In this document: positions 46,372 to 63,626 of the stretch, one piece after another
How the letters are laid out: each line of letters begins with the position of its first letter
Numbering within the stretch: position 1 is the stretch's first letter
Assembly (NCBI RefSeq): GCF_000179555.1
Contig: NZ_AECZ01000010.1
Coordinates: 62,001-126,000 of the forward strand
Direction: 5' to 3'
Length of the DNA stretch: 64,000 nucleotides
DNA from: Solidesulfovibrio fructosivorans JJ]
GTDB lineage: Bacteria > Desulfobacterota > Desulfovibrionia > Desulfovibrionales > Desulfovibrionaceae
The notes under the pieces: model-generated
The model's database searches: none
Told to the model about the DNA's origin: nothing
Seen by the model: only the letters and a program-made list of their open reading frames with translations
Translations under genes and position numbers: made by a program

Positions 46372-47796
46372 TCAGGACGAGGAATGGCGCGTCAGCCCAT
46401 GCTGGCGCAGCAAGGCATAGAGCCTGGCCCGGGACAACCCCGACAGGGCCTCGGCCCGTTCCATGCTCTCCCCGGCAACGTGCAGTAAAGCCTCCAGGTA
46501 GAGCCGGTCGATCCGGGCCAGTTCCTTGGCCCGAAAGGCACGAATGGGAGGGAAATGCTCCGGATCGAGGTCGGGACGCGGAGAGGGTTCCCGTTCCGCG
46601 ATCGGGGCGCTCTCGACCGTGACGGAACGGCGGGCCAGCCAGGCTCGGATGTGCACCGGCAAATGCCGGGGGAGCAGGGTCGTTTCGGCCTCGGCCGCAG
46701 CCAGGGCGCTGTCCGTGGCGCTGAAAAGTTCACGCACGTTGCCGGGCCAGCCGTATTCGAAAAGCGCACCCCAAAATTCCGGTGAGCCCTCCCTGGCCGG
46801 CTCGTCCTCCTCCCCGGCCCGCATCTGCAGGCGATGGCGGCAAAGTGCCTCGATGTCCACCGTGCGGCCTCGCAGCGGCGGCAGTTCTATGGTCATGCCC
46901 CGCAGCCTGAAGAGCAGGTCCTGGCGAAAGGTCCAATCCGCCACCATCCGTTCCAGATCCCGGTTGGTGGCCGCCACCAGCCGAAAATCGCTGCGCACCT
47001 CCTCGGTGGCCCCCACCGGGCGAAAGCGATGCTCCTGCAGCAGGCGCAGGAAGGCCTTTTGCACGGCCAGGGGCAGCTCACCGATCTCGTCGAGAAACAG
47101 CGTGCCGCCGTGGGCTTGGCGGATCAGCCCCGGATGCTTCTTCTCGGCCGTGGTGAAGGCCCCCTTCTCGTGGCCGAAGAGCATGCTCTCCACCAGCGAT
47201 TCCGGCAGGGCGGCGCAGTCCACCACCACGAAGGGCCCGTCGCGACGGTCGCTGTTGTCGTGGATGACCCGAGCGAAAAGCTCCTTGCCCGTGCCGGTCT
47301 CGCCCACGATCAGGACGTTGGCCCCGCTTCTGGCCGCCCGGGCCGCCATGTCCAGGCAGGCCGCCAGCGCCTTGCTCTCGCCGATGATGCCTTCGCGCCG
47401 CAGCGGAGCCCTGGGCTTGGCCAGAGCCTTGTTGTGGTGGTACTCCACGGCCCGGCTTATGGGGAGACGGATTTTGCTCAGGGTGCCGGGTTTGGTGATG
47501 TAGTCCCAGGCCCCGCTTTTGATGGCCAACTCGGCCCCGTCCGGGTCGCCCTGGCCGGTGAGGATGATGATCTCGGGCGCGTCCGGCATCTCACGGACGG
47601 CCGGGATGTGCTTTAGGCCATTGCCGTCGGGCAGGACCACGTCCAGCACCACCACGTCGAAACCGCCCAGGGCCAGCTTTTCCAGGCCGGTCTCAAGGCT
47701 GTTGGCCGCCTCGCTTTCCCAGCCCAGGCCGGCGATGATGGCCTGGAGGGAGCGGCAGAAGCCGACGTCGTCGTCGATGACGAGAATGCGGGGCAT
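46372..47796 (-). CDS. Sigma-54 response regulator with GAFTTA variant
   Basis: A 474-residue activator beside the Hdr operon. The receiver (1-120) has VIDDD and phospho-Asp in VLDVVLPDGNG. The AAA domain has GETGTGKE, Walker [12 protein letters not shown], and a sigma-54 contact loop reading GAFTTA (in GHEKGAFTTAEKK) instead of GAFTGA. The C-terminal helix-turn-helix is ESMERAEALSGLSRARLYAL. GGGAGG lies nine bases before the ATG. The kinase gene is 26 bases upstream on the same strand, so they form an operon, divergent from hdrA1 whose -24/-12 promoter it most likely activates. Confidence 0.9.
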   Translation of the reverse strand: MPRILVIDDDVGFCRSLQAIIAGLGWESEAANSLETGLEKLALGGFDVVVLDVVLPDGNGLKHIPAVREMPDAPEIIILTGQGDPDGAELAIKSGAWDYITKPGTLSKIRLPISRAVEYHHNKALAKPRAPLRREGIIGESKALAACLDMAARAARSGANVLIVGETGTGKELFARVIHDNSDRRDGPFVVVDCAALPESLVESMLFGHEKGAFTTAEKKHPGLIRQAHGGTLFLDEIGELPLAVQKAFLRLLQEHRFRPVGATEEVRSDFRLVAATNRDLERMVADWTFRQDLLFRLRGMTIELPPLRGRTVDIEALCRHRLQMRAGEEDEPAREGSPEFWGALFEYGWPGNVRELFSATDSALAAAEAETTLLPRHLPVHIRAWLARRSVTVESAPIAEREPSPRPDLDPEHFPPIRAFRAKELARIDRLYLEALLHVAGESMERAEALSGLSRARLYALLRQHGLTRHSSS

Positions 47797-47822
47797 GATT
47801 GTCCGCCTCCCTGAAAATGTCC

Positions 47823-49769
47823 TCAGACCGCGACGAAAAGAACCTCCCGAATCACCCGGTCCAGTTCCTCGAAACAAAACGGCTTGGCCAGCACCCGCCT
47901 GCCGCCGCAGGCCCGCAGCATGTCCCCGGCCAGGGCCTCGTCATGGCTGGAGAGCATCACCACCGGCAGGTCCGGCCGCAACTCCAGCAGCTCCCGGGCC
48001 AAAAGAATGCCGTCCTGGCCGGGCCGCGACAGATCGACCAGGGCCAGATCGAAGCCCCGGGGATCTTCAGATAATGCCCGCCTGGCCTCGCCGCGTCCCG
48101 TGCTGGTTTTGACCGCATAGCCCAAACGGGCCAGGGCCATGGTCGTGCAGTGGACCATCTCCGGGTCGTCGCCCGCGAACAAAATGCGGGCCTGCGGCCG
48201 GGGCGGCAACTCCCTGGCCGGGACCGACGCGTCCGGTGTCCCGGCAACGGTCGGCCCCTTGGGAAACAGGACCCGAAAGGAGGTCCCGAGCCCGGGATGG
48301 CTTTCGACGCTTATGGCCCCGCGCATCTGGGTCACGATGTGCCGGGCCACGGTCAGGCCCAGGCCCGTGCCGTGGCCCTCGCGCTTGGTGCTGAAAAACG
48401 GCTCGAAAATCCGTTTCATGACGTCGCTGGTCATGCCCTGTCCGGTGTCGCTGACGCAAAGCCGCAGATAGGCCCCCGGCGGCAGGGACGACTCCTCGGA
48501 CCAGTCGCCCTCCGTGACCACGGCGTCCTCGATGCGGACGGTCAAAAGGCCCCCCTCCTGGTCTTTCATCGCCTCAATGGCATTGGTCAAAAGATTCATT
48601 ATCACTTGGTGGCCCCGGGTCGGGTCACCCCGCATTTCGCTGCGCGCCGCCTCGATGCGCAGGCGGATGGACAGGCCGGGGGGCAGGCCCGGGGCCAGGA
48701 ACTTGAGACATTCCTTGACCAGGGTGCTCAGGCGGAAACGCACGGGCGTGTCGCTTTCCACGCTACGTCCCAGGGAAAGCAACTGTTCGCCGAGCGCCCG
48801 GGCCCGCCCCACGGCCTCGACGATCTCCCGCAGGGACTCGGCCTGGGGATCGCCGGCCTCAAGCCGCTCCAGACATAGTTCGGCATGCAGGATGATCGGT
48901 CCGAGAATGTTGCGCAGGTCATGGGCGATGCCGCTGGCCAGGGTACCGATGACCTCCATCTTCTGGGCGTGGCGCAACTGTTTTTCCAGGCCGCTGACTT
49001 CCGTGGAATCGCGCCAGACAAAGGCGTAGCCCTCCACCAAGCCGTGCTTGCCCCAAACCGGGGAAATGGTCTGGTCGCACATGCGGGTGTCCCCGGCCGC
49101 GTCCACCAGCAAAAAACGGCCCTTCCAGACGTCGCCGCGCTCCAGGGCGGCCGCGCCGCGCTCGAATTTCCGGGCCTGCCGGCTGCCCTTGTAAAAGGTC
49201 TTGAGACCGCGTCCCCGGGCCTGCCCTTGCGACACCCCGGTCATGGCCTCGAAAGCCTGATTGACGTATTCGATGCGAAAGCGGTCGTCGGTGACGATCA
49301 CCGCTTCCATGGCCTGCTCGATGGCCGCGGCGAGCTTGTGGCATTGCCTGAAGGCACGCTGTTCCCGGCTGGCGTCGCGCAGGCGCACGGCCACGGCGGT
49401 CACCTTCCCGGCCGCGTCCAGAAGCGGCACCAGCCGCGCGTCCGCCACCCTGTCCGGCGGCAACGCCAACCGGTAGCGGCGCGACGTCCGCGACAGCAGG
49501 ACCTCGGCCACCGCGCCCCGCCAGAACTCCCCGTCGTCGTCCTCGAAACAGGTAGACAGCGAACCGTACCGACCGGCCTTGCGGTCGGCCGGCAGCCAGC
49601 CGGCCAGCCCCGGATCGACGGCCAGGACGGTTCCGTCCGGTGCCACGATCACCACGTCCTCCGGCTCCGAAGACGGATCACAGGCCGGTACGGCCCGGGA
49701 CGGACGCGTCTGCGCGTCCGTGGAAGACGCCATGTTTTCCGGCGTCGGTCCATCCGTATTTTTTCCCAT
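47823..49769 (-). CDS. Cytosolic PAS histidine kinase with C-terminal receiver
   Basis: A 648-residue kinase without transmembrane helices, so it senses an intracellular signal. A PAS-like domain at about 45-140 and a clear PAS at about 155-275 (AVIVTDDRFRIEYVNQAFEA) precede the kinase core with His in SGIAHDLRNILGP, N-box MNLLTNAIEAM and ATPase boxes SDTGQGM and GTGLGLTVARH. The C-terminal receiver has phospho-Asp in LALVDLSRPG. The ATG has GAGGCGGG upstream. Paired with the GAFTTA regulator; a redox or cofactor signal from the divergent Hdr operon is a reasonable guess. Confidence 0.88.
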   Translation of the reverse strand: MGKNTDGPTPENMASSTDAQTRPSRAVPACDPSSEPEDVVIVAPDGTVLAVDPGLAGWLPADRKAGRYGSLSTCFEDDDGEFWRGAVAEVLLSRTSRRYRLALPPDRVADARLVPLLDAAGKVTAVAVRLRDASREQRAFRQCHKLAAAIEQAMEAVIVTDDRFRIEYVNQAFEAMTGVSQGQARGRGLKTFYKGSRQARKFERGAAALERGDVWKGRFLLVDAAGDTRMCDQTISPVWGKHGLVEGYAFVWRDSTEVSGLEKQLRHAQKMEVIGTLASGIAHDLRNILGPIILHAELCLERLEAGDPQAESLREIVEAVGRARALGEQLLSLGRSVESDTPVRFRLSTLVKECLKFLAPGLPPGLSIRLRIEAARSEMRGDPTRGHQVIMNLLTNAIEAMKDQEGGLLTVRIEDAVVTEGDWSEESSLPPGAYLRLCVSDTGQGMTSDVMKRIFEPFFSTKREGHGTGLGLTVARHIVTQMRGAISVESHPGLGTSFRVLFPKGPTVAGTPDASVPARELPPRPQARILFAGDDPEMVHCTTMALARLGYAVKTSTGRGEARRALSEDPRGFDLALVDLSRPGQDGILLARELLELRPDLPVVMLSSHDEALAGDMLRACGGRRVLAKPFCFEELDRVIREVLFVAV

Positions 49770-49951
49770 GATACCCGCCTCGTACCATACCGGCACAGCT
49801 TGTCAACGACGCTCATGCTGCAAAAACGACGCCGCCCTTAGCAACAAGCGCGCTTCCGTCGGACTTTTCTCTTCAACCCGCATAGAACAGGGATTTATAT
49901 CCCGTTATGGAGCCGACGTTTCCATAGCAACCTTTCGACAAGGAAATCTTC

Positions 49952-49986
49952 GTCTTGTCAGGGAAGACTTTTCTTCTTGTTCAAGA
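49952..49986. promoter_or_regulatory. Candidate upstream activator sites
   Basis: Two inverted repeats: GTCTT-N7-AAGAC (49952-49968) and TCTTG-TT-CAAGA (49975-49986). They lie about 90-140 bases upstream of the -24 element, the usual distance for enhancer sites of sigma-54 regulators. Confidence 0.4.
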
Positions 49987-50073
49987 CGCTTTTCCTGAGC
50001 AATCCCTGTCCCAAAACACGGCCCATATCGGCAAATCTCGCGAATTTTCAATCATCCTGGTCCACTGTGCCCC

Positions 50074-50089
50074 TGGCACGAATATTGGT
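50074..50089 (+). promoter_or_regulatory. Sigma-54 (-24/-12) promoter of the Hdr operon
   Basis: TGGCACGAATATTGGT matches the consensus TGGCACRN4TTGCW at every defined position except the final GC, which is GG. The expected transcription start is near 50101, 30 bases before the hdrA1 ATG. A sigma-54 response regulator is encoded divergently next door. Confidence 0.75.
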
Positions 50090-50130
50090 CATAAAGAGAC
50101 AAACGACCGGGCAAAAGACAGGGAGGCGAC

Positions 50131-52155
50131 ATGGCCAACAGAATCGGGGTCTACGTCTGCCATTGCGGCACCAACATCGCCGGCAAGGTGGACACTGCCG
50201 CCGTGGCCGGCTTCGCGGCCGGACTCAAAAACGTGGCCGTGGCCCGGGACTACAAGTTCATGTGCTCCGATCCCGGCCAGGAAACCATCATACGCGACAT
50301 CAAGGCGTACCGCTTGAATCGGGTGGTGGTGGCTTCGTGTTCGCCGCGTCTGCACGAGAAAACCTTCCAGAACGCCTGCGCCCGCGCCGGGCTCAACCCC
50401 TTCCTCTTCCAGATGACCTGCATCCGGGAACACTGCTCCTGGGTGGTGGCCGATCCGGCCGAGGCCACGGCCAAGGCCAAGCACCTCGTGGCCGGAGCCG
50501 TGGACCGGGTCAACCACCACGAGGAACTCTACTCGCGCACCGAACCCGTGCACCCCGACGTGCTGGTGGTCGGCGGCGGCATCGCCGGCATCCAGGCCGC
50601 CCTGGACATCGCCAAATCCGGGCACAGGGTCCATCTGGTGGAACGGAGTCCCTCCATCGGCGGGCACATGGCCCAGTTCGACAAGACCTTCCCGACGCTG
50701 GACTGCGCCGCCTGCATCTCCACGCCCAAGATGGTGGCGGTATCCCAGGACCCGAACATCAACCTCATGACCTATGCCGAGGTGGCCGAGGTCACGGGGT
50801 TTGTCGGCAACTTCACGGTCACCATCCGCCGCAAGCCCCGCTACATCGACGAAACCAAATGCACGGGCTGCGGACTGTGCCTGGAGAAGTGCCCGACCAA
50901 GGTCCCGAGCGAATTCGAGGAAGGCATCGGCATACGCCGGGCCATCTACCGCAATTCGCCCCAAAGCGTGCCCAATAAGCCCGTCATCGACACCGAGCAC
51001 TGCCTGTACTTCCGCAAGGGCAAGTGCCGGGTGTGCGAAAAGAACTGCCCCTCCGGGGCCGTCGATTTCGAGCAAAGGGAAAGCCTGCTGACGCTCGAGG
51101 TCGGCACCATCGTCATGGCCACCGGGTTTGCCGCCTTCGACCCCACGCCCCTTGGCCAGTACGGTTTCGGCCGCTACCCCGAGGTGTACACGGCCCTGCA
51201 GTTCGAACGCTTAAATAACGCCGTGGGGCCAACCGGCGGCAAGATCGTCATGAAAAACGGGGCGCCGCCCGCGTCCGTGGCAATCATCCATTGCGTGGGC
51301 AGCCGCGACGCCGCCCATCATCCCTACTGCTCGCGCGTGTGCTGCATGTACGCGCTCAAATACGACCACCTGATAAAAGACAAGCTCGGCCACGACACGG
51401 AGGTCTACAACTTCTACATCGACCTGCGCTGCTTCGGAAAGGGCTACGAGGAATTCTACGAGCGGGTGCAGAAGGAAGGCGTGACCTTCATTCGGGGCCG
51501 GCCGGCCCTGGTCACGGACGAGGCGCTCTCCCCGGAAGAGGAAGGCAAGCTCATCGTGGTCGGCGAGGACACCCTGCTTGGCCGCACCCTGCGCCTGCCC
51601 GTGGACATGGTGGTCCTTTGCACGGCCATGGAGCCGCGACACGACGCGGCCGAGGTGGCCCGGACCTTCGGCATAAGCCAGGGCCTCGACAAGTTCTTTC
51701 TGGAGGAACACCCAAAGCTCGGGCCGGTCTCCACGGCCACGGACGGCGTCTATCTGGCAGGCACCTGCCAGGGGCCCAAGGACATCCCGGACACCGTGTC
51801 CCATGCCTCGGGCGCGGCCTGCCAGGCCCTGGCCCTGGCGAGCAAGGGCCAGGTGACCATCTCGCCCACGGTCAGCCACATCAACCCGGACGTGTGCATC
51901 GGCTGCGGCATCTGCATCAAGCTGTGCGCCTACGGGGCCATTGATTTCGACCAGCGCCTGGGCGTGGCCGTGGTCAACGAGGCTATGTGCAAGGGCTGCG
52001 GGGCCTGCGCCGGACACTGTCCATCCGGGGCGGCCCAGGTGCGCCACTTCAACCAGCGGGAGCTTTTCGCCGAGATCGACGGCTTGATCGAGCCGTTGCC
52101 CGTTTTGATCGCCGCCACGGACGAGGAAACCAAGGCCGCGCCTGCCCCGGCCTGA
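50131..52155 (+). CDS. hdrA: HdrA1: heterodisulfide-reductase-type subunit A (FAD/Fe-S)
   Basis: A 674-residue soluble flavoprotein of classical HdrA architecture. The N-terminal Fe-S domain has VYVCHCGTN (residues 8-16), FMCSDPGQE and ASCSPRLHE. The FAD fold has VVGGGIAGIQAALDIA (about 147). The conserved TLDCAACISTPKM follows the FAD loop. A ferredoxin-like insert has CTGCGLCLEKCP (about 249-260) and CRVCEKNCP. The C-terminus has two further clusters, CIGCGICIKLC and CKGCGACAGHCP. In known complexes HdrA bears the bifurcating FAD. GGGAGGCGAC precedes the ATG. First gene of the operon. Confidence 0.93.
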   Translation: MANRIGVYVCHCGTNIAGKVDTAAVAGFAAGLKNVAVARDYKFMCSDPGQETIIRDIKAYRLNRVVVASCSPRLHEKTFQNACARAGLNPFLFQMTCIREHCSWVVADPAEATAKAKHLVAGAVDRVNHHEELYSRTEPVHPDVLVVGGGIAGIQAALDIAKSGHRVHLVERSPSIGGHMAQFDKTFPTLDCAACISTPKMVAVSQDPNINLMTYAEVAEVTGFVGNFTVTIRRKPRYIDETKCTGCGLCLEKCPTKVPSEFEEGIGIRRAIYRNSPQSVPNKPVIDTEHCLYFRKGKCRVCEKNCPSGAVDFEQRESLLTLEVGTIVMATGFAAFDPTPLGQYGFGRYPEVYTALQFERLNNAVGPTGGKIVMKNGAPPASVAIIHCVGSRDAAHHPYCSRVCCMYALKYDHLIKDKLGHDTEVYNFYIDLRCFGKGYEEFYERVQKEGVTFIRGRPALVTDEALSPEEEGKLIVVGEDTLLGRTLRLPVDMVVLCTAMEPRHDAAEVARTFGISQGLDKFFLEEHPKLGPVSTATDGVYLAGTCQGPKDIPDTVSHASGAACQALALASKGQVTISPTVSHINPDVCIGCGICIKLCAYGAIDFDQRLGVAVVNEAMCKGCGACAGHCPSGAAQVRHFNQRELFAEIDGLIEPLPVLIAATDEETKAAPAPA

Positions 52156-52175
52156 CGTCGCCAACGGAGGATATG

Positions 52176-52598
52176 ATGGACGACTTCGAACCCACCATCG
52201 TGGCCTTTGTCTGCAACTGGTGCACCTACACCGCCGCCGACCTGGCCGGCACCTCGCGCATGATCCAGTCCCCCAACGTGCGGTTGGTGCGCATGATGTG
52301 CACGGGCATGGTGGACCCCAAGTACGTGATCAAGGCGCTTCTGTCCGGGGCCGACGCGGTGCTTATCAGCGGCTGCCACCCCGGCGACTGCCACTACATC
52401 AACGGCAATTACAAGGCCCGGCGGCGGGTGAAGCTCTTGAAGGAAATCCTGCCGCGCCTGGGGATCGAGGAGGACCGGCTCCTGCTCACCTGGGTCGGGG
52501 CCAGCGAGGGCAACGAATTCGCGGCCACGGTCAACGGGCTCGTGGCCCGGATCAAGGAACTGGGACCCATCGAGGCCAGGCGCACCCTGGTCGTATGA
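52176..52598 (+). CDS. mvhD: MvhD-type iron-sulfur subunit
   Basis: A 140-residue [2Fe-2S] protein of the MvhD/FlpD family, which passes electrons to HdrA from a hydrogenase or dehydrogenase. The cluster-binding Cys are in CNWCTYTAADLAGTSR (Cys 13 and 16), MMCTGMVDPKY and GCHPGDCHYINGN. Of two adjacent ATG codons the second gives correct spacing (five bases) to GGAGG. It lies 20 bases after hdrA1 and 24 bases before the FrhB-like gene. No hydrogenase is present, so the electron donor is more likely the next gene product. Confidence 0.93.
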   Translation: MDDFEPTIVAFVCNWCTYTAADLAGTSRMIQSPNVRLVRMMCTGMVDPKYVIKALLSGADAVLISGCHPGDCHYINGNYKARRRVKLLKEILPRLGIEEDRLLLTWVGASEGNEFAATVNGLVARIKELGPIEARRTLVV

Positions 52599-52622
52599 CC
52601 GGACAGTGACGGAGGGCGGACC

Positions 52623-53777
52623 ATGTCTACCACCATGAAGATCGAAGTGCCGGGCGAGGGCCCGACCGCCGCCCTGCGGGGCGTTTTGGCCAAACTGCTG
52701 GACGTGCCGGACGTGGCCGCCGTCTTCACCCTGCGCCACACCCCGGGGGGGGCGGCCATGCCGGCGCTTGTGACCGACCCGGAGCTTCTGGCCGAAGCCG
52801 ATCCCCTGGCTCCGGCTTTTCCCCTCAATGCCGCGACGATCCTTGCCCGGCTCACCCGGGGCGGCACCGAGGGAACCATCGCGGCGGTGCTTCGCCCCTG
52901 CGAGATCAGGGCCTTCGTGGAACTGGTCAAGCTCAACCAGGGCAACCTGGAGAACGTGCTGCTTTTAAGTGTGGATTGCCCCGGGGCCTTTAACAACACG
53001 GACTATCGGGACTACGTGGCCCTCAACGGCGTCAAGGAGGTCGGCCGGACGTTCGTGCGCCGGATGCTCTCAACCGACGCGGCCGCCACCGACGACGGTC
53101 TGGAGGTGGCCCGGGCCTGCCAGGTTTGCGAACACCCCGTGGCGGCCGCCGCCGACGGAGCCATCGGCCTTTTCGGCAATGATCCGGAAAAGGTCATGCT
53201 CGTGGTTCCCCAGACGGCCAAAGGCATGGGACTCTTGCGCCGCCTGGACCTGCCGGCTGCCGACGAGGCGCTTACGGCCAACCGCGAGGCGGCCCTGGCC
53301 AATCTGCTGCGTGAGCGCATGGTCCGGCGCGACGCCATGTTCGCCGAAACGGGCGCGGCCGTGGCGGGCCTCGAAAAACTCGGCGCCTACCTCGCCGGCT
53401 GCGTCAACTGCTACAACTGCCGGGTGGCCTGCCCGGTCTGCTACTGCCGGGAATGCGTCTTCGTCACCGACGTTTTTGACCACTCTCCCTGGGAATACTT
53501 GAACTGGGCCAAGCGCAAGGGCGCGCTGAAGCTCCCGGCGGACACGCTTTTTTACCACATGACCAGGCTCGCCCACATGAGCCTTGCCTGCGTGGGCTGC
53601 GGCCAGTGTTCCAACGCCTGCCCGAGCGGCGTGCCGGTGATGGAGCTTTTCCGCACTGTGGCGGCCGGAGCCCAGGCGGCTTTCGGCTACGAGGCCGGGC
53701 GCAGTCCCGAGGAAGCGCCTCCGCTGTCGCTCTTCCAGGAAAAGGAATTCGCCGAAGTCACGGCGGGAGCGCAGTAA
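52623..53777 (+). CDS. FrhB/FdhB-like flavin and Fe-S oxidoreductase subunit
   Basis: A 384-residue soluble protein. Residues about 75-230 hold the FrhB/FdhB-type fold (AAVLRPCEIRAFVELVKLNQ, LLLSVDCPGAF, PVAAAADGAIGLFG). The C-terminal part has a Cys-rich segment CVNCYNCRVACPVCYCREC (about 260-278) and a second cluster CVGCGQCSNACPSG (about 326-339). Family members transfer electrons to F420, NAD(P)H or formate dehydrogenase through FAD. It sits between mvhD and hdrA2, so it may be the electron-entry module of this complex. The co-substrate cannot be read from sequence. Confidence 0.75.
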   Translation: MSTTMKIEVPGEGPTAALRGVLAKLLDVPDVAAVFTLRHTPGGAAMPALVTDPELLAEADPLAPAFPLNAATILARLTRGGTEGTIAAVLRPCEIRAFVELVKLNQGNLENVLLLSVDCPGAFNNTDYRDYVALNGVKEVGRTFVRRMLSTDAAATDDGLEVARACQVCEHPVAAAADGAIGLFGNDPEKVMLVVPQTAKGMGLLRRLDLPAADEALTANREAALANLLRERMVRRDAMFAETGAAVAGLEKLGAYLAGCVNCYNCRVACPVCYCRECVFVTDVFDHSPWEYLNWAKRKGALKLPADTLFYHMTRLAHMSLACVGCGQCSNACPSGVPVMELFRTVAAGAQAAFGYEAGRSPEEAPPLSLFQEKEFAEVTAGAQ

Positions 53778-53798
53778 CGCGGGCAAAAGGAGCGGATC

Positions 53799-56700
53799 AT
53801 GAAGCGCACCTGCGACGCCCTGGTGATCGGGGCCGGCATCGGCGGCATCCGGGCCGCGTTGGACCTGGCCGAGGCCGGGCACACCGTGACCGTCATCGAC
53901 AAGCGGCCCCATATTGGCGGCATCCTCACGCGCCTGGACCACCAGTTCCCGTCCGACCACTGCGGCATGTGCAAGATGTTGCCGTTGACCGAACGCGAAG
54001 CCTCGAGCGAGTTCTGCCTGCGCAAGGGGCTTTTCCACCGCAATATCGACATCATGCTCTCCTCGGAGCTGACCTCCCTGGACGGCGAGCCGGGCGCGTT
54101 TTCGGCCGTCATCAACCGCCGGTCGCCCTTTGTCGACGCCACCAAGTGCGTGGGCTGCGGGGCCTGTGCCAAGGTGTGCCCGGTGTCCGTGCCAAACGAA
54201 TTCAACGCCGGGCTCACCAGCCGTGGGGCGGTGTATCTGCCCGTGCCCCATGCCATTCCCAACCACTACGTGGTGGACCTCGATGCCTGCCAGCGCTGTT
54301 GGCAATGTTACGAAGCCTGTCCCACCGGAGCCATCGACTTCAAGCTCGACGAGCGCGAACGCCACGGCATCCTGGTGGTCGACCCCGATCCCGAGGCGGC
54401 CGGGCGCTTCGGCTCCTGGCTCGGCGCGCTCAAGTTCCCGGTCGTCTCCGCCGCCACCGGCGACAAGGCGCTCGACATCCTGGCCTCGGACGCGCCCGCC
54501 CGCATGATGCTCCTCTCGCCGGGCCTCACCGACATGGAGGCCTCGCGTGTCCTGACCCGGGCCCTGGAACTGCGCCCGGACCTGGCCGTGTTCGTTCCCG
54601 GCGACCCCGAAATGGCCGACGCCGCCCGGGAGATCATCGGCCTCGGAGCCCGGGCCGTCATGCCCCATCCCCTTTCCCGCAAGGTCTTCGTGCCCTGGAT
54701 CGACAAGCAGTTCATGCGCCTGGCCTCGGATGACGCCGTGACCCTGGACGTGGCCGCCGTGATCCTGGCCGGGGGCTTCGACTGCTATGATCCCGGAACG
54801 GACGCGGCCGTGCTCGGCTACGGCGTGCTGCCCGGGGTGGTCACCTCGGTGGAATTCGAACGCCTGCTCTCCGGTACCGGCCCGACCGGCGGGAAGCTCA
54901 CGCGCCCCGGCGACGGCAGGCCCGTGCGCGACATCGCCTGGCTCCAGTGCGTGGGCTCGCGCGATCTGCGCAAAAACGCCGATTTCTGCTCGTCTTTTTG
55001 CTGCATGGCGAGCATCAAGGAAGCCGTTCTGGCCAAGCGGGCCACGGGCGGCGAGACCAAGGCCACCATCTTCGCCATGGACGTGCGGACCTTTGGCCGG
55101 GATTTCGAGCACTACCGCCAGGAAGCCCAAAGCGTCCACGGCGTGCGCTTCGTCCACGGCCGGCTCCACACCACCCTGCCCGATCCCTCGGGCGACGGCC
55201 GGCTGCGCCTGTCCTACACCGACGAGGCCGGGGCGCTTCACGAGGAATCCTTCGACATGCTGGTCCTGGCCGTGGGAGCGCGCCCGCCGGCCGGCATGGA
55301 AGGACTCGCCAAGGCGGCCGGGGTGGACACCAACGCCTTCGGTTTTTGCGCCACCCCGCCCTTCGACGCCAACCGGACCAGCCGACTGGGCGTCTTCGCC
55401 GCCGGGGCCATGGGCGGTCCCCGGGACATCGCCGAGTCGGTCATCCAGGCCAGCGCGGCCGCCCTTGGCGCGTCCCGGATCATCCAGCGCTTCGCCTCCA
55501 TCCGGGAGCGCCCCCCCGAGGCCAAGCCGGTCTATCGGGATGTGTCCCGAGAAGCGCCCAGGGTCCTGGTCACGCTGTGCGACTCCTGCCCGACCCTGAC
55601 CCAGGCCGTGGATGTGGAGCAGGTGCGCCGGGGCCTCGCCGACCTGCCCGGAGTGTGCCAGGTGGAATGCGTGTCCCGGGCCTGCACCGGCGAGGGCTGG
55701 AAGGCCATCACGAAACTGGCCGCGGATCTCAAGCCCAACCGCATCTTGATCGGCGCATGCATGCCCTACGCCTACGTGCCGAAGCTGCGGGAACTGGGAA
55801 CGGCCCTTGGCCTGCGGCCGACGCTCATGGACGTCGTGGACATCCACACCCCGGCCTTTACGGCCGCCATGGAAGGAAACTCCGGGGCCGGGCCCGCTGT
55901 GGAGCAGGAGATCACGGCCCGGCTCGGCATGGCCGAGGCCAAGTTGCTCGGGGCCGACCCCACTCCGCTGCCGCGGCCGCTGGCCGTGACCCCGGCCGCC
56001 CTGGTGGTGGGCGGGGGGCTGGCCGGCATGACCGCCGCGCTCGGCATTGCCGATCACGATTACAAGGTCACGCTGGTGGAAGAGGCGGCGGAACTCGGGG
56101 GGCTGGCCAGACACGTGCGCCTGACCCTTGGCGGCGGCGATCCGGTCCGCTTCCTGGAGGGGCTTGTCGACCGGGTGCGCCGCCATCCCAACATCCGGGT
56201 CATGACCGAGGCCAGGGTGTCCCTGTCCACGGGCAAGGCCGGCCGGTTCCTGAGCATCGTCTCCACCGACGAGGGTGGCCTACCGGTGGAGCACGGCGTC
56301 ACCATCCTGGCCACGGGCGGCCGCCGGGCCAAGATCTACGACTTCGGCTTTCTGACCCGCAAGACCGTGACCACCCACCAGGATCTGGAACGCATGCTCA
56401 CCAGCGGCGAGCTGGACACGGCGACCCTCGGCAGCGTGGCCATGATCCAGTGCTTCCGCTCCCGGGACGAAAACCGGCGCTACTGTTCGCGCGTATGCTG
56501 CGCCGGAGCGCTCAAAAACATCCTCTATCTAAAAAATAAGCACCCCGACCTGCCCATCTATGTCTTTTACCGCGACATCATGAGCTACGGCTTCGCCGAG
56601 CAGTACTACACCAAGGCCCGCCGGGCCGGAGCGGTGTTCATCCGCTACGATCCAGCCCACAAACCGCAAGTCCGCTTCGACGAGGCGGGCAAGCCCGTCA

Positions 56701-57287
56701 TCACCGGCTACGACCCGGTGCTGCGTCGCGCGGTCGAGGTCCACGCCGACCTGCTTTCCCTCTCCGACGGCATCGAACCCGGGGATACGGCGGAACTGAG
56801 CGAGGTCTTCGGCGTGCCCGTGGGTCCGGACGGCTTCTTCCAGGAGGCCGAATCCAAGTGGCGACCCGTGGACTTCCTGCGCTCGGGCATCTTCGTGTGC
56901 GGCGTGGCCAGGGCCCCGGGCACCATGGACGAGACGGTCTGCTCGGCCAAGGCGGCGGCCAGACACGCCCTGCGGGTCCTTGGCGAAAAGAACCTGGCCC
57001 CGGGCCATGTGCTGGCCTCGGTGCGCCACAGCCTGTGCACGCGCTGCGGCAAGTGCCTGGACGTGTGCCCTTACGGCGCCAGGACCCTCGATACCGAACA
57101 CGACCGCATCGTGGTGGACGACATCCTGTGCCAAGGCTGTGGCTCGTGCGCCTCGGCCTGTCCCAACAGCGCCAGTTTCATCCGGGGCTTTTCCGACCGC
57201 CAGGTCCTTTCCGTCATCGACGCGGCCCTGGCCGTTTCGGGCCGGCCCGCGCCCGCCCCGGCAACGGATGTGAAGGAGACCATATGA
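53799..57287 (+). CDS. HdrA2: double HdrA-type protein with receiver-like insert
   Basis: An 1162-residue soluble flavoprotein, about 1.7 times classical HdrA. First half: FAD fold VIGAGIGGIRAALDLA (about 9), DHCGMCKM in place of the HdrA Cys loop, clusters CVGCGACAKVCP (117-128) and CQRCWQCYEACP (164-175), then residues 189-305 resembling a response-regulator receiver (HGILVVDPDPEA, RALELRPDLAVFVPG, GLGARAVMPHP) but with Ser-Pro where the phospho-Asp should be (LLSPGL). FAD-domain remainder to about 565. Second half: an HdrA N-terminal-type Cys domain (about 585-700), a second FAD fold (VVGGGLAGMTAALGIA, about 736), and clusters CTRCGKCLDVCP and CQGCGSCASACP. GGAG precedes the ATG; the stop overlaps hdrC. 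Confidence 0.9.
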   Translation: MKRTCDALVIGAGIGGIRAALDLAEAGHTVTVIDKRPHIGGILTRLDHQFPSDHCGMCKMLPLTEREASSEFCLRKGLFHRNIDIMLSSELTSLDGEPGAFSAVINRRSPFVDATKCVGCGACAKVCPVSVPNEFNAGLTSRGAVYLPVPHAIPNHYVVDLDACQRCWQCYEACPTGAIDFKLDERERHGILVVDPDPEAAGRFGSWLGALKFPVVSAATGDKALDILASDAPARMMLLSPGLTDMEASRVLTRALELRPDLAVFVPGDPEMADAAREIIGLGARAVMPHPLSRKVFVPWIDKQFMRLASDDAVTLDVAAVILAGGFDCYDPGTDAAVLGYGVLPGVVTSVEFERLLSGTGPTGGKLTRPGDGRPVRDIAWLQCVGSRDLRKNADFCSSFCCMASIKEAVLAKRATGGETKATIFAMDVRTFGRDFEHYRQEAQSVHGVRFVHGRLHTTLPDPSGDGRLRLSYTDEAGALHEESFDMLVLAVGARPPAGMEGLAKAAGVDTNAFGFCATPPFDANRTSRLGVFAAGAMGGPRDIAESVIQASAAALGASRIIQRFASIRERPPEAKPVYRDVSREAPRVLVTLCDSCPTLTQAVDVEQVRRGLADLPGVCQVECVSRACTGEGWKAITKLAADLKPNRILIGACMPYAYVPKLRELGTALGLRPTLMDVVDIHTPAFTAAMEGNSGAGPAVEQEITARLGMAEAKLLGADPTPLPRPLAVTPAALVVGGGLAGMTAALGIADHDYKVTLVEEAAELGGLARHVRLTLGGGDPVRFLEGLVDRVRRHPNIRVMTEARVSLSTGKAGRFLSIVSTDEGGLPVEHGVTILATGGRRAKIYDFGFLTRKTVTTHQDLERMLTSGELDTATLGSVAMIQCFRSRDENRRYCSRVCCAGALKNILYLKNKHPDLPIYVFYRDIMSYGFAEQYYTKARRAGAVFIRYDPAHKPQVRFDEAGKPVITGYDPVLRRAVEVHADLLSLSDGIEPGDTAELSEVFGVPVGPDGFFQEAESKWRPVDFLRSGIFVCGVARAPGTMDETVCSAKAAARHALRVLGEKNLAPGHVLASVRHSLCTRCGKCLDVCPYGARTLDTEHDRIVVDDILCQGCGSCASACPNSASFIRGFSDRQVLSVIDAALAVSGRPAPAPATDVKETI

Positions 57288-57832
57288 ACGCCATCCCAAC
57301 CGAAGCCGGCCCCGAACTGGAAGCCGTCCGGGATATGGTGCGCTCCTGCCTGCAGTGCGGCACCTGCACCGCCTCCTGTCCCAACGCCGCAGCCATGGAC
57401 GTCTCGCCAAGGCGGTTGTGGCGGCTTCTTACCACCGGCCACGCCGACGAGGCCCTGGCCAGCCGCAGCTTCTGGCTGTGCTCCTCCTGTTACGCCTGCA
57501 CGCTGCGCTGTCCGCGCGGACTGCCGCTGACCGACGCCATGGCGGCGCTTAGGCGCCTGGCCAGCCGGCACGACCCGGCCGCGGCCAAGGAGGGGGCGGC
57601 CTTTTACGGGACGTTCATGGACAATGTCCGGCGCAACGGACGGGTCCAGGAAACGGATCTTATGGGCCGGTATTTTCTGGCCATGAAAAATCCGCTTTTG
57701 CCCCTGACCTTCGCGCCGCTCGGTCTGCGGCTTTTCGCCAAGGGCAAGCTCCACCGGCCCGTAACCGAACAGCGGGGCAGGCTCGGCTCCATGTTCGCCA
57801 CGGCCGCCAAGGACGAGGGGGACCGGTCATGA
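57284..57832 (+). CDS. hdrC: HdrC-type iron-sulfur subunit
   Basis: A 182-residue soluble ferredoxin-like protein that links HdrA to HdrB. Two [4Fe-4S] motifs are CLQCGTCTASCP (Cys 22, 25, 28, 32) and CSSCYACTLRCP (about 67-78). The C-terminal half is helical without further Cys, as in HdrC. The ATG overlaps the hdrA2 stop, and its own stop overlaps the hdrB start, both as ATGA, so stoichiometric synthesis is likely. Confidence 0.92.
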   Translation: MNAIPTEAGPELEAVRDMVRSCLQCGTCTASCPNAAAMDVSPRRLWRLLTTGHADEALASRSFWLCSSCYACTLRCPRGLPLTDAMAALRRLASRHDPAAAKEGAAFYGTFMDNVRRNGRVQETDLMGRYFLAMKNPLLPLTFAPLGLRLFAKGKLHRPVTEQRGRLGSMFATAAKDEGDRS

Positions 57833-58713
57833 AGTACGCCTACTACCCAGGCTGCTCACTCATGGAGAGCGCCGTCGAGTTCGACCAGGCGACAAGGGCC
57901 ATGCTCGAGCGCCTGGACGTGACCATCGAGGAGATCCCGGACTGGACCTGCTGCGGCGCCAGCGCCGTGGACTCGGTCAGCCAGTCCCTGGGACACGCCC
58001 TGCCGGCCAGGAACCTGGCCCTGGCCGAGAAGCATCTGCCGGGCCTGGACATCCTCATGCCCTGCGCCGCCTGCTACCTCAACCACCTCAAGCTCACGCG
58101 CCAGGCGACCGGAGCCGTGACCCGCGAGGTCAACCACCTCCTGGCCGACGAGGGACTCACCTACACCGGCAAGGGCGGCCGGGTGCGCCACCTCCTCGAC
58201 GTGCTGACGCGCGACGTCGGCCCGGACGTGATCAAGGCCAAGGTGACCCGGGAACTGGCCGGACTGGTGGTCGCGCCCTACTACGGCTGCCAGGTGCTGC
58301 GCCCCTATTCCGTGTTCGACGACCCCGAACATCCCCGGTCCATGGAGCCGATCATCGAGGCCCTCGGGGCCACGGTCCATCCCTGGCGCCGGGGGAACGT
58401 CTGCTGCGGGGCGTCGCTGATGGCCACGCACAAGGGCGCGGCCCTGGCCTCCGTGACGGCTATCCTCAAGGCGGCGGCCGGAGCCGACGTCATCGTCACG
58501 GTGTGTTCCATGTGCCAGATGAACCTGGACGCCTACCAGGCGCAGGCACTGGGCCACGGCGCGTCCGCCGTGACCGTCCTCTATCTGCCCCAGCTGGTCG
58601 GACTGGCCCTGGGGCTCTCCCCACGGGAGGTGCTCATGGAGAAAAACCTGGCCATTAACCCTGTGTTTACGTCCAAGCTGGAACAAACCGGGGCTGCCCG
58701 GGCCGTCTCCTGA
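57829..58713 (+). CDS. hdrB: HdrB-type disulfide reductase subunit
   Basis: A 294-residue soluble protein with two CCG domains, the catalytic non-cubane cluster module of HdrB. The first copy has YYPGCSLMES near the N-terminus, TCCGASAV (about 40) and CAACYLNHL; the second has PYYGCQVL, VCCGASLM and CSMCQMNLD. In methanogens HdrB reduces CoM-S-S-CoB. In sulfate reducers the substrate is presumably another disulfide, for example DsrC trisulfide, which is inference. Overlaps hdrC by four bases. Confidence 0.93.
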   Translation: MKYAYYPGCSLMESAVEFDQATRAMLERLDVTIEEIPDWTCCGASAVDSVSQSLGHALPARNLALAEKHLPGLDILMPCAACYLNHLKLTRQATGAVTREVNHLLADEGLTYTGKGGRVRHLLDVLTRDVGPDVIKAKVTRELAGLVVAPYYGCQVLRPYSVFDDPEHPRSMEPIIEALGATVHPWRRGNVCCGASLMATHKGAALASVTAILKAAAGADVIVTVCSMCQMNLDAYQAQALGHGASAVTVLYLPQLVGLALGLSPREVLMEKNLAINPVFTSKLEQTGAARAVS

Positions 58714-58764
58714 GTCGTCCCAACCGGCCCGCAGCCTTCCAACCGCATCCGCCAAGGAGGCGTT

Positions 58765-59688
58765 ATGTTCAAGGACATCGTGCTGGCCGTCACACCATCG
58801 GCCATCTGTGAAAACGCTGCGGAAAAGGCCTTCTCCTTTGCCAAGCTTTTCGACGCCAAGCTCTACCTCGCCCATGTGTGCGGCCTGGAGCAGGGCTGGG
58901 GCGAGATCGAATACCTCGAATCATCCGGGGCCACAGCGCGCATCAAGGAGAATATCGAGGCCTACTACAAGGACCGCATCGCCGGCGTGCCGCATTGCGA
59001 GATCATCGTGCGGGCGGGCATCCCGCACAACGAGGTCCTGCGCCTGGCCAGGCAGAAGAACGCCGACCTGATCATCATGGGTCCCCACACCAAGGAATAC
59101 ACCGAAAAGCGCTCCCGCATGTGGGGCATGGCCGGCAGCACCCTGGAACGCGTCAGCCAGCGCGCTTCCTGCCCGGTCATGATCGTCACCAACCAGGCTC
59201 CGGCCGCCCAGCGGTTCGGCCACCTGATCGCGGCCACGGACTTCTCCGACCAGGCGGAATGCGCCGTGTCCTACGCCGGACAGATGGCCCGGCATTACCG
59301 GGCCTCGCTGACGGTCTTCCACGTCCTGGACAAGGGGGACCTCGACACTGCGGCGCTGCAGGCGGCCCAGGCGGACACGGTGGCCAGGCTGCGGGAGATT
59401 TACGAACCCCGCCTGGCCGGCATCGCCAACCACGACTTCCAGTGCCTCGTCGGGGACCCGGCCATGGAGATCCTGGGGATGTCCCAGCGGACCGAGACCG
59501 ATCTCATCATCATGGCCCACCATTCCAAGGAGAAGGATCCGGAACAGGCTTTTTTGGGCTCCACCGTGACCAAGGTAGCGCTTAATGCCGCCTGTCCGAC
59601 CATGAGCGTAAACAAGCACTTCGATCTGCGCTGCGGCCTGATGTACGACCAGACCGGCCAGGCCGTGTCGGCCGAGGCCACGGCCTGA
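58765..59688 (+). CDS. Tandem universal stress protein (UspA)
   Basis: A 307-residue cytosolic protein of two UspA domains. Each domain starts with a KDIVLAVT or HLIAATDFSD strand and has the nucleotide-binding end: LIIMGPHTKEYTEKRSRMWG then GSTLERVSQRASCPVMIV in the first, LIIMAHHSKEKDPEQAFLG then STVTKVALNAACPTMSV in the second. AAGGAGG precedes the ATG; it begins 51 bases after hdrB in the same direction, so it belongs to the Hdr transcript. It may stabilise or sense the energy state of the complex. Confidence 0.92.
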   Translation: MFKDIVLAVTPSAICENAAEKAFSFAKLFDAKLYLAHVCGLEQGWGEIEYLESSGATARIKENIEAYYKDRIAGVPHCEIIVRAGIPHNEVLRLARQKNADLIIMGPHTKEYTEKRSRMWGMAGSTLERVSQRASCPVMIVTNQAPAAQRFGHLIAATDFSDQAECAVSYAGQMARHYRASLTVFHVLDKGDLDTAALQAAQADTVARLREIYEPRLAGIANHDFQCLVGDPAMEILGMSQRTETDLIIMAHHSKEKDPEQAFLGSTVTKVALNAACPTMSVNKHFDLRCGLMYDQTGQAVSAEATA

Positions 59689-59717
59689 TCGTGTCGGCCG
59701 CCTTTCGCGGAAGGGGA

Positions 59718-59750
59718 CCGGGCGGGCGCTCTCTGAAAAGCCCCGCCCGG
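59718..59750. other. GC hairpin between usp and the HdrD-like gene
   Basis: A nine-base-pair stem CCGGGCGGG/CCCGCCCGG with a 15-base loop and no T-run, 29 bases after the usp stop. It may be a processing or partial termination point that lowers expression of the last gene. Confidence 0.55.
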
Positions 59751-59776
59751 CCCCGCCGCCAACACGGGAGCTGAGC

Positions 59777-61144
59777 ATGGACACGCAACCCATCACCGCC
59801 ACGTCGCCCCCGCCCCTCGTTCTCGACGCGAACACCCAGGGACGGCTTAAAGGCCAGCCTTTGCGGCTCTTGCCGGAAAATCTCAACTTGCAGGCCTGCA
59901 TGACCTGCGGAGCCTGCGTCAACGGCTGTCCGGCCACGGGCACGCCCGGTCTTGGCGACCTCGACGTGCGCAAGATCTTGCGCATGCTGGTCCTGGGCCT
60001 GGTCGACGAGGCGGCGGCTACGAATTTCCCGTGGTTGTGCACGGGCTGCGGCCGCTGTTCACTGGTATGTCCCATGGGCCTGGACATCGTGCCGGTCATG
60101 GCGGAACTTAAGCATATGCGCCCCCGGGAACAGGTGCCGGGCATCCTGCACAAGGGCGTGGAACGGGTGTTGCGCTCGGGCAACAACATGGAAATTTCCC
60201 AGTCCGAGTACCTCGCCACCCTTCTCGACGTGGGAAACGACCTGGCCGAGGAGGAATGCCCGGGATTTTACGTGCCCGTGGACAAAAAGGACGCGGACAT
60301 CCTGTTTTTTCCCAATTCCAAGGAAGTCTACGGCGACTTCGAAGACATGAAATGGTGGTGGAAGGTGTTTTATGCCGCCAGGACCAACTGGACCGTGCCG
60401 TCGCGCAACTGGGAGGCCGTGGATTGGGGGCTTTTCTCCGGAAACTTCGAAGCAACAGCCATCTTGGCCAAACGCAAGATGGAGCTCCTGCGGGAACTCC
60501 ATGTGGGCCGCATGATCATGCCGGACTGCGGCGGCGGCTCCTATGGCTGCCGGTCGGGCATGAAGATGTGCGCCATGGAGGATCCTACCGAACAGGTGGA
60601 CTTCATCTACCTCTACGACTATCTTATGGAAGTGATCACCCAAGGCCGCATCAAGCTCGACAAAAGCGTCAACGTCGGCCGGCGCTTCACTTGGCACGAC
60701 TCGTGTAAGCACGGCCGCGAACTGGAAAAACATTTCGGCAAGGCCTACTACGAGGAACCGCGTTATATCATTGCGCAGTGTGTGGACGATTTCGTGGACA
60801 TGATCCCCAACCGCGTCAACAACTACTGCTGCGGGGCTGGCGGCGGCAACTGGCCCATGCCCTTCGAGGCCCAGTCGGCCTACCACGGCCGGCTCAAGTA
60901 CGACCAGATCCGCCGCACCGGGGCGGACGTGGTGGTGGTGGGCTGCTCCAACTGCCGCGACCAGATGATGAAGCGGCTGCCGCGTTTCTACAAGGACTAC
61001 AAGTATGAGGTGAAATACATCTGGCAGCTTGTGGCCGAGAGTCTTGTCCTTGAGCCGTATTCCGGAGAGGAACTGGTCCGGGCCGAGGCCGAGGCCGAAG
61101 CCCAATGGGAACGGTTGGGCGTCACCCCCGAAGACGTGCTGTAA
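59777..61144 (+). CDS. HdrD/DsrK-like iron-sulfur reductase
   Basis: A 455-residue soluble protein of the HdrD/DsrK/TmcB class, essentially HdrC fused to HdrB. The N-terminal part has two [4Fe-4S] motifs, CMTCGACVNGCP (41-52) and CTGCGRCSLVCP (about 90-101). The rest has two CCG-type regions: MPDCGGGSYGCRSG, WHDSCKHGR, then NNYCCGAGGGNW and GCSNCRDQ. In DsrMKJOP, DsrK reduces the DsrC trisulfide with electrons from the membrane. Here no membrane partner is encoded in the operon. GGGAG precedes the ATG. Last gene of the Hdr cluster. Confidence 0.88.
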   Translation: MDTQPITATSPPPLVLDANTQGRLKGQPLRLLPENLNLQACMTCGACVNGCPATGTPGLGDLDVRKILRMLVLGLVDEAAATNFPWLCTGCGRCSLVCPMGLDIVPVMAELKHMRPREQVPGILHKGVERVLRSGNNMEISQSEYLATLLDVGNDLAEEECPGFYVPVDKKDADILFFPNSKEVYGDFEDMKWWWKVFYAARTNWTVPSRNWEAVDWGLFSGNFEATAILAKRKMELLRELHVGRMIMPDCGGGSYGCRSGMKMCAMEDPTEQVDFIYLYDYLMEVITQGRIKLDKSVNVGRRFTWHDSCKHGRELEKHFGKAYYEEPRYIIAQCVDDFVDMIPNRVNNYCCGAGGGNWPMPFEAQSAYHGRLKYDQIRRTGADVVVVGCSNCRDQMMKRLPRFYKDYKYEVKYIWQLVAESLVLEPYSGEELVRAEAEAEAQWERLGVTPEDVL

Positions 61145-62375: not shown

Positions 62376-63626
62376 TCAGCATTCCACGCGCACAGAATCC
62401 CCCTGGCAGGAGCCGTCTCCCTGAAGGCGAGTTAAGGCAAGGACTGTGACATCATCCGCTAACGGCTTATAATGCGTGAACTTCCGCATGGATTGGCACA
62501 TGGTACGAATAATGGTGGCGGGGGAACTTGAGCCAACATCCTTGAGAACGCCTTCGATACCCTTCCAACCGAACCGCCGGGTACCCGCCGCGGTTCTGGT
62601 TTCCGCCTCACGCAGTCCATCAGTGAAGAGAAAGAGCAAATCTCCGGGATGGATCGACGTTGTCCGCATTTCGAAAACATAGTCGGGGTCGATACCCAGT
62701 GGTATTCCCTTCCCCCCGAGCCGTTCCAGCGTTCCCGACGCGTCCCGACGCAATATCGGTGAATCATGCCCGGCGCGCACCCAGGACAACGTCCATTCGC
62801 ATGTGTCCAGAATACAATAAAACAAAGAAATAAACCGGGCATGTTCGGAAAAATCATTATGTATGGCCGAGTTTACATCGCTGACAATATCCAGAAGCGT
62901 TCCAGGGCTGTTTGCCCGCATCCGCAACAAGCCCCGCGCCGTGGCCATGAGGAGCCCTGCTTCCAATCCATGACCTGTTACATCGCCGACAAGAATGTGC
63001 AGTCGGCTTTTGTCCCCTCTGGCCGTGAAATAATCGTAATAATCCCCGCTGACGCCGTGGGAGGGGACGAAGCGGACCGCCAAATCGAGCCCCGGGATGG
63101 CGGGATGGCTCTTGGGGAGAAGGGCCTCTTGTACCGCAAAGGCCATTTCCATGGCGGAAAGATGTTCGGTGAGATCCGTCAACAGGACGAAGTGACCGAT
63201 GATTGCGCCGTCGCCATCCCGCAAGGTGGAACCATGAACCATGACCGGAACCACTGTCTCGTCCGGCCTAACGATGCCGGCCCGAAAGTGCCGCTGATCC
63301 TTCCGGATGAGTTTGCGCCGGTGCCTGGTCAGGTAACGCCGTGTCAGTTCATCGAAAAACTGCCAGGGATGGCGTCCCAACAAGACACTTGCTTCACGTT
63401 GCGACAAGGCGACGAAGGCCGGATTAACTTCCACAATCTTGAGACTGGCATCCATCCTGAAGAATGCTTCGCCGGCATTATGTATGATGGCCCGATACTC
63501 CGCCAACTCTTTCTCGCAACGGCATTTTTCCGATTCCAGGGAAGAAATCCGTTGGGAAAGGTCACACGAAAAAGCCCTGCGCCGTCTTGTTTTTGCTTGC
63601 AATGTATTCTTTGATTTCAAACGCAT
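62376..63626 (-). CDS. PAS-SpoIIE family serine phosphatase
   Basis: A 416-residue cytosolic protein. A short coiled coil (about 28-45) leads into a PAS domain (46-165, with IHNAGEAFFRMDASLKIVEV and GHFVLLTDLTEHL). Residues about 185-400 form a PP2C-type SpoIIE/RsbU phosphatase with the metal-binding motifs SGDYYDYF, GDVTGHGLEAG, LFTDGLREA and DDVTVLAL. Such enzymes dephosphorylate anti-sigma-factor antagonists (RsbV/SpoIIAA type) in response to the PAS signal. No antagonist or anti-sigma gene is in view. The ATG is at 63626. Lies on the presumed island side of the tRNA scar. Confidence 0.9.
   Translation of the reverse strand: MRLKSKNTLQAKTRRRRAFSCDLSQRISSLESEKCRCEKELAEYRAIIHNAGEAFFRMDASLKIVEVNPAFVALSQREASVLLGRHPWQFFDELTRRYLTRHRRKLIRKDQRHFRAGIVRPDETVVPVMVHGSTLRDGDGAIIGHFVLLTDLTEHLSAMEMAFAVQEALLPKSHPAIPGLDLAVRFVPSHGVSGDYYDYFTARGDKSRLHILVGDVTGHGLEAGLLMATARGLLRMRANSPGTLLDIVSDVNSAIHNDFSEHARFISLFYCILDTCEWTLSWVRAGHDSPILRRDASGTLERLGGKGIPLGIDPDYVFEMRTTSIHPGDLLFLFTDGLREAETRTAAGTRRFGWKGIEGVLKDVGSSSPATIIRTMCQSMRKFTHYKPLADDVTVLALTRLQGDGSCQGDSVRVEC

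Follow-up and report, generated by a model that had tools for sequence, protein, structure and literature searches.

In a 64,000-nucleotide stretch of the Solidesulfovibrio fructosivorans JJ genome (contig NZ_AECZ01000010.1, positions 62,001 to 126,000; hereafter the window), we found a soluble heterodisulfide reductase (Hdr) gene cluster in which one protein, HdrA2, is a tandem fusion of two HdrA modules with a receiver-like domain inserted. The receiver, which is the distinguishing feature of an otherwise known kind of Hdr cluster, is canonical in orthologues from outside the Desulfovibrionaceae and degenerate within the family. Judged from sequence, the cluster probably encodes one soluble flavin and iron-sulfur complex of the Hdr type, bifurcating or confurcating, that was perhaps ancestrally gated through the receiver and is probably controlled by transcription in S. 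fructosivorans. The region (46372-61144; Table 1) comprises genes for a response regulator and a hybrid histidine kinase on the minus strand, divergent from eight plus-strand genes, and a check of the reading frames confirmed the coordinates, gene families, tiny gaps and ATGA overlaps given in a first-pass annotation. That annotation had also counted two HdrA proteins; both are present, but the double architecture of HdrA2 and its receiver-like insert had been missed.

The contrast between canonical and degenerate receivers is complete at the level of catalytic residues. Among 59 distinct HdrA2 proteins (34 from Desulfovibrionaceae, window included, and 25 from outside), the acidic pair, phospho-accepting Asp, Thr and Lys were all present in 25/25 outside the family and in 0/34 inside, where Asp still occupies the phospho-site in 22 and Lys is kept in 25. 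A broader collection of 41 HdrA2, redundant in part, gave the five residues in 39 of the 40 with data; in the remaining one the bases at the acidic pair were unread, and one more protein was cut. The extra-family protein P0011 (locus L067) matches Response_reg at the insert with 109 bits, its best Pfam match, and thereby combines a score above the cut-off with the five canonical residues of a phosphorylatable receiver. The window HdrA2 has neither, with Ser at the phospho-site and His at the Lys site, and the three other family proteins scanned scored 27.7 bits, 46.0 bits and nothing. In AlphaFold models of two HdrA2 proteins, the window's included, strands and helices alternate at the insert in the order of a receiver (mean predicted local distance difference test scores of 75.9 and 75.7), the last receiver strand of the window model being just two residues long. 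When the entire L067 model was submitted to a fold search, the best 50 rows comprised folds of HdrA and flavoproteins and no receiver, and the receiver assignment rests on sequence and the order of secondary structure.

Receiver-bearing HdrA2 was found in at least 17 of 394 genomes of the phylum, a lower bound since two candidates were scored per genome, and 12 of these belong to eight families other than Desulfovibrionaceae. It is present in 7/8 genomes of one order and 12/55 of another; the distribution of loci comes from an initial scan of 80 loci and likewise gives minimum counts. In a quick tree built without the receiver columns, receiver-less, canonical and Desulfovibrionaceae HdrA2 each fell on one side of a branch, with Shimodaira-Hasegawa-like approximate likelihood ratio support of 100, 95 and 100 (26 randomly chosen receiver-less rows, 24 of the 25 canonical and 18 of the 34 Desulfovibrionaceae proteins). 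The canonical copies are not all independent, as loci L061, L187 and L212 look near-identical. One receiver insertion followed by one decay would be the simplest reading of these sequences, the direction, decay instead of gain, being taken from the receiver residues in an unrooted tree.

How the receiver may have worked is suggested by its conservation and its surroundings. Mean pairwise identity outside the family was higher in the receiver (0.647) than in the two HdrA parts (0.586 and 0.483), whereas inside the family it was lower (0.422 versus 0.667 and 0.611). Signalling genes, recognised by BLAST to seven proteins and not by Pfam, lay within 6 kb of 25/32 canonical loci versus 11/26 receiver-less Desulfobacterota loci (p 0.007), after 2/34 canonical loci, 8/34 of these controls and 2/9 within-genome controls had been dropped for short flanks. 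A first control (19/23 versus 14/48, p 3e-5) was set aside, as it mixed phyla; the phylum-matched comparison is the weaker one. The neighbouring proteins scanned were PAS/HAMP kinases, receiver-kinase hybrids, single receivers and one sigma-54 regulator, and a small receiver-like gene stands directly upstream of hdrA1 in 11/18 loci outside the family. A canonical receiver, the probable ancestral state and commonly near signalling genes, probably gated electron flow by phosphorylation. Whether the Hdr complex is itself a two-component output seems to us evenly balanced: phosphorylation of the HdrA2 receiver would turn the activity of the complex on or off, or choose between its disulfide outlets, letting a sensor kinase gate bifurcation without transcription, and in Desulfovibrionaceae this control would have decayed, its place being taken by a two-component system that acts on transcription of the same operon. 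We regard as a good deal less probable a receiver that acts as a structural spacer or protein-docking module, never phosphorylated, in a constitutive complex. Such a role would fit the Desulfovibrionaceae, in which the phospho-site is lost yet the fold seems kept and the cluster persists, but it sits poorly with the invariant catalytic residues outside the family and with a receiver more conserved there than the HdrA parts around it.

The two halves of HdrA2 are complementary. The first module lacks the HdrA N-terminal domain and carries an inserted ferredoxin with its eight cysteines kept, and the second has both the N-terminal domain and the C-terminal ferredoxin. By alignment to 5odc_A, the equivalent of Cys197 is Cys58 (with Cys55) of the first half, present in 59/59 HdrA2, and the corresponding part of the second half has no comparably conserved cysteine, only column 758 exceeding one fifth of rows (25 percent). 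HdrA2 is probably a pseudo-heterodimer, one half contributing the Cys197-equivalent and the other the N-terminal domain. Cys384/397/401/402, Cys885/896/900/901 and Lys407/906 were kept in 49/49 HdrA2, that is, both halves have the four-cysteine cluster motif and a Lys at the position of Lys409, to which we presume a functional role in HdrA. HdrA1 aligns with solved HdrA across nearly its whole length and conserves the cluster cysteines and the Lys409-equivalent in alignment to 5odc_A. As all three HdrA modules keep these residues at the flavin adenine dinucleotide, which we used as the mark of a bifurcating HdrA, bifurcation or confurcation with ferredoxin is likely. A non-bifurcating reductase that simply relays electrons, with NAD(P)H or ferredoxin at one end and DsrC or a different disulfide at the other, strikes us as unlikely, given the same cysteines and Lys; in its favour, bifurcation is unprovable from sequence and some HdrA-like proteins are considered non-bifurcating. 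In anaerobic methanotrophic (ANME) archaea, a comparable complementarity of the N-terminal domain and Cys197 between two HdrA halves is read as a sign of a heterodimer in PMC9012536. As a separate observation, HdrA1 carries an inserted ferredoxin whose second cluster motif is unusually spaced, as C-x7-C-x2-C-x3-C, in 24/25 Desulfovibrionaceae rows in which it was found and with x8 in the remaining one; the motif was not found in 8 further rows.

The remaining subunits were assigned by Pfam, NCBIfam and comparison with sequences of solved structures. HdrA, HdrC and an HdrB with two CCG motifs that matches solved HdrB occur in one cluster, as in HdrABC-type soluble heterodisulfide reductases, an assignment at the level of homology, with scores that fall short of the NCBIfam equivalog cut-offs set for the archaeal enzymes. 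The HdrD-like protein scored 134-161 bits against curated DsrK, HmcF and TmcB cut-offs of 400-750 and is, by these scores, related to all three but none of them. No hydrogenase domain (MvhA and MvhG included), no MetF or MetV domain and none of the domains expected of Flx proteins appeared among the Pfam matches of the cluster proteins. A membrane subunit was not evident either, the highest 19-residue Kyte-Doolittle mean in the ten proteins being 1.81, in a Rossmann segment of HdrA2; nor is HdrC a QmoC, with 53 bits against the NCBIfam cut-off of 300 and no membrane stretch. The absence of hydrogenase, Flox-type and membrane genes claimed by the first-pass annotation thus holds, and its gene content, its cytosolic complex, its FdhB/MvhD side and its two disulfide-reductase-type proteins are supported.

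On the donor side, electrons would enter (or leave) HdrA1 through a port made up of the FdhB-like protein and MvhD. The former had been called FrhB-like, and it does belong to the FrhB/FdhB family, with the FdhB of F420-linked formate dehydrogenases in Hdr complexes as its nearest solved relatives. HdrA1 proteins from other families mostly have 1130-1152 residues, with a Fer4_20/Pyr_redox_2 (GltD-like, NAD(P)H-type) module in the ferredoxin region by Pfam scan of one protein; the module motif was found in 18/19 HdrA1 outside versus 0/33 in Desulfovibrionaceae. This favours NAD(P)H over formate as the ancestral donor, with the module fused into HdrA1. The branch that includes the window has no such module and keeps the FdhB-like port, so NAD(P)H via another protein, ferredoxin and formate are all possible there. 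Formate, NAD(P)H or another flavin donor had been suggested earlier; the NAD(P)H-type module of the orthologues had gone unseen. An FdhA encoded elsewhere could also be recruited by the FdhB-like protein, giving a formate-driven Fdh-Hdr complex as in methanogens. The solved relatives of that protein speak for such a complex, as does fdhA directly following fdhB at two other Hdr loci reported in PMC2702500, but we think it improbable, since no fdhA was among the cluster genes in a Pfam scan (the remainder of the genome was not searched for fdhA) and the orthologues bear an NAD(P)H-type module instead.

On the acceptor side, HdrC-HdrB and the HdrD-like protein would provide two disulfide-reductase outlets, with the DsrC trisulfide as the likeliest acceptor in these sulfite reducers; the three parties to the probable bifurcation would be NAD(P)H or formate, ferredoxin and a DsrC-type disulfide. 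Of the 59 host genomes (32 family, 27 other), 51 were searched; dsrA was above cut-off in 49 of these and DsrC was found in 50, which fits a DsrC-type acceptor and lends it weak support. Hdr genes adjoin the Wood-Ljungdahl pathway in other sulfate reducers, according to PMC10553843, and a complex like MetFV-HdrABC would follow that pattern. We consider this highly improbable and reject it for Desulfovibrionaceae, the only family in which CdhC was sought: the protein occurs in 2/149 genomes, one of which (G027) also carries full-length HdrA2 of the type described here, and the cluster genes encode no MetF or MetV domain.

The order of the cluster genes is conserved far beyond chance. At 33 further Desulfovibrionaceae loci, counting a gene only where the contig reaches, HdrA1 (32/32), MvhD (32/32), the FdhB-like protein (33/33), HdrC (33/33), HdrB (33/33) and universal stress protein (Usp; 32/32) were all in place, and the HdrD-like gene was in 28/32. 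The linkage that the first-pass annotation had proposed to check by synteny therefore holds. Full-length HdrA2 (E 0) was present in 32/149 family genomes as 33 copies, with fragments in two more, and was absent from all 8 further genomes sampled from the genus of S. fructosivorans. At canonical loci outside the family, HdrC lay beside HdrA2 in 19/24 and HdrB in 18/23, and Usp held the family's position in 2/20.

In the Desulfovibrionaceae branch, without an NAD(P)H-type module or intact phospho-site, the divergent kinase and sigma-54 regulator probably control expression. Homologues of the regulator were found at 27/33 and of the kinase at 18/33 family loci. The sigma-54 pattern, at no more than one mismatch, has two matches in the whole window, both in the 334-base divergent region and facing away from each other; two is no more than chance would give (3.6 expected in the whole window), and the placement was noticed after the search. 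The strict pattern occurred in 1/33 upstream regions, the window's own, against a background of 3/1600, and a score test gave p<0.05 in 2/31 upstream regions (L043 and L050 were dropped for want of a clear start; L041 is without hdrA1). Self-regulation, as first annotated, is plausible for the window operon with its two sites, though the matches are no more frequent than expected and the strong one is not conserved.

Several of our results weigh against the proposal as a whole. The window HdrA2 itself, its phospho-site lost, cannot show phosphorylation. Seven canonical loci have no signalling genes within 6 kb, and receiver-less paralogues of the same genomes have them near in 3/7, a contrast with 25/32 that is not significant (p 0.08). 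HdrC went unseen at 5/24 and HdrB at 5/23 canonical loci. In the FdhB-like protein, the alignment to solved FdhB is weak over the flavin part (and clear over the C-terminal iron-sulfur part), and F420 synthesis is not known from these bacteria. The gene dsrA is common in the phylum (79/148 genomes), and the hosts are related. Finally, a conserved sigma-54 promoter was rejected, the strong match being a feature of the window alone and not kept in relatives.

A receiver domain in Hdr proteins was not reported in the open-access literature we searched, subscription papers not being covered. Receivers on a flavoprotein disulfide-reductase fold do occur in a fused response regulator/thioredoxin-disulfide reductase, a name that occurred in none of the papers searched; that fusion differs in having no HdrA and no multi-subunit electron-transfer complex. 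Locus VIII of Desulfobacterium autotrophicum HRM2 is alike, with tandem hdrL/hdrA4, fdhB, hdrB, hdrC and hdrD2, and response regulator, histidine kinase and CheY-like genes, in a 2009 figure legend (PMC2702500). Our cluster may equal this locus, which is a genome description and no characterised complex; the comparison is with the legend's description, as no sequence of that locus was among the 80 loci listed by our scan, and the word 'receiver' is absent from the main text of PMC2702500. The methanogen FdhAB-HdrABC-MvhD complexes (7bkb, 9t1s) share HdrA, HdrB, HdrC, MvhD and FdhB homologues; unlike them, the window cluster has no FdhA and includes HdrD-like and Usp genes and an extra HdrA fusion that bears a receiver. 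The fused or tandem HdrA of ANME archaea shares complementary halves and HdrD-like and FdhB-like neighbours, but the order of the halves is opposite in HdrA2, and no receiver is mentioned in the accessible text of PMC9012536. FlxABCD-HdrABC of Desulfovibrio shares soluble HdrABC and DsrC as proposed acceptor (PMC4215793 and PMC10553843), whereas our cluster lacks Flx genes and has an FdhB-type port and a fused HdrA. The D. alaskensis Hdr/flox system (PMC4215793) is a relative by mechanism.

Table 1. Features of the divergent regulator pair and Hdr operon (window coordinates)
Feature	Position	Strand	Evidence
Sigma-54-dependent response regulator	46372..47796	-	Pfam Response_reg 4.1e-19, Sigma54_activat 1e-65
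PAS hybrid histidine kinase	47823..49796	-	Pfam HATPase_c, HisKA, PAS, C-terminal Response_reg; no evident membrane helix (hydropathy)
Sigma-54-type promoter-like site toward kinase/regulator pair	49998..50013	-	1 mismatch; consensus match only
Sigma-54-type promoter-like site toward hdrA1	50074..50089	+	exact to search pattern
HdrA1, 674 aa, full-length HdrA	50131..52155	+	755 bits to 5odc_A, residues 4-653
MvhD-like protein	52173..52598	+	Pfam FlpD 7e-52
FdhB/FrhB-family protein with C-terminal Fe-S motifs	52623..53777	+	FrhB_FdhB_C 5.9e-8; 9t1s_M 3.9e-28, 7bkb_E 3.3e-25, 8rvu_E 2.9e-24
HdrA2, tandem HdrA fusion, 1162 aa, receiver-like domain inserted	53799..57287	+	
Degenerate receiver (CheY-like) domain in HdrA2, residues 190-310	54366..54728	+	Response_reg E 0.006, 17.2 bits (cut-off 30.2)
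HdrC-like protein, 4Fe-4S dicluster domain	57284..57832	+	TIGR03290 2.7e-23 (below cut-off); Fer4 domains
HdrB, two complete CCG motifs	57829..58713	+	Pfam CCG 1.5e-21; 9sfi_C 2.8e-36
Tandem universal stress protein (Usp)	58765..59688	+	Pfam Usp 6.8e-41, two stretches
HdrD/HmcF/DsrK/TmcB-like soluble protein, one CCG motif	59777..61144	+	NCBIfam HmcF 160.7 bits, DsrK 134.1, TmcB 134.0; all below cut-offs

Within the region, the regulator probably starts at the internal ATG 47796, the longer listed frame opening at TTG 47877, and mvhD at ATG 52173 or 52176, 17 or 20 bases past the end of hdrA1. The ATGA overlaps lie at the starts of hdrC (57284) and hdrB (57829); usp is preceded by a 51-base gap and the hdrD-like gene by one of 88 bases. 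A transfer-messenger RNA gene (44750-45106) lies upstream of the regulator pair, and a minus-strand protein at 62376-63626 resembles, by eye only, a PAS/PP2C-type phosphatase.

Other Hdr-type loci were also noticed. A short way beyond the right end of the window, another Hdr-like cluster (L021:5731-13220, that is C10:126731-134220) lies on the minus strand, divergent from a sigma-54 regulator, and encodes an MvhD-containing protein of 252 aa, HdrA-type proteins of 442 and 665 aa and proteins of 129 and 391 aa; a check for Qmo identity gave no NCBIfam qmoC match. The genome (G000) has four FlpD/MvhD-domain matches, one in the cluster studied here, so further Hdr-type complexes probably exist. 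Elsewhere, HdrD-like paralogues have an in-frame TGA at a conserved place (L027:15248-16543, L034:15121-16416, L024:15474-16778 and L065:15018-16316), with a hairpin directly 3' of it in the three folded of the four, which together suggest selenocysteine.

In the usual view, substrate levels and gene expression govern electron bifurcation. With a canonical receiver inside a catalytic HdrA, control of bifurcation directly by a signal could be tested on a single purified protein, with the lineage in which the receiver has decayed as a natural comparison. For the sulfate reducers, with their many unassigned hdrA loci, the cluster provides a domain-level account of one kind.

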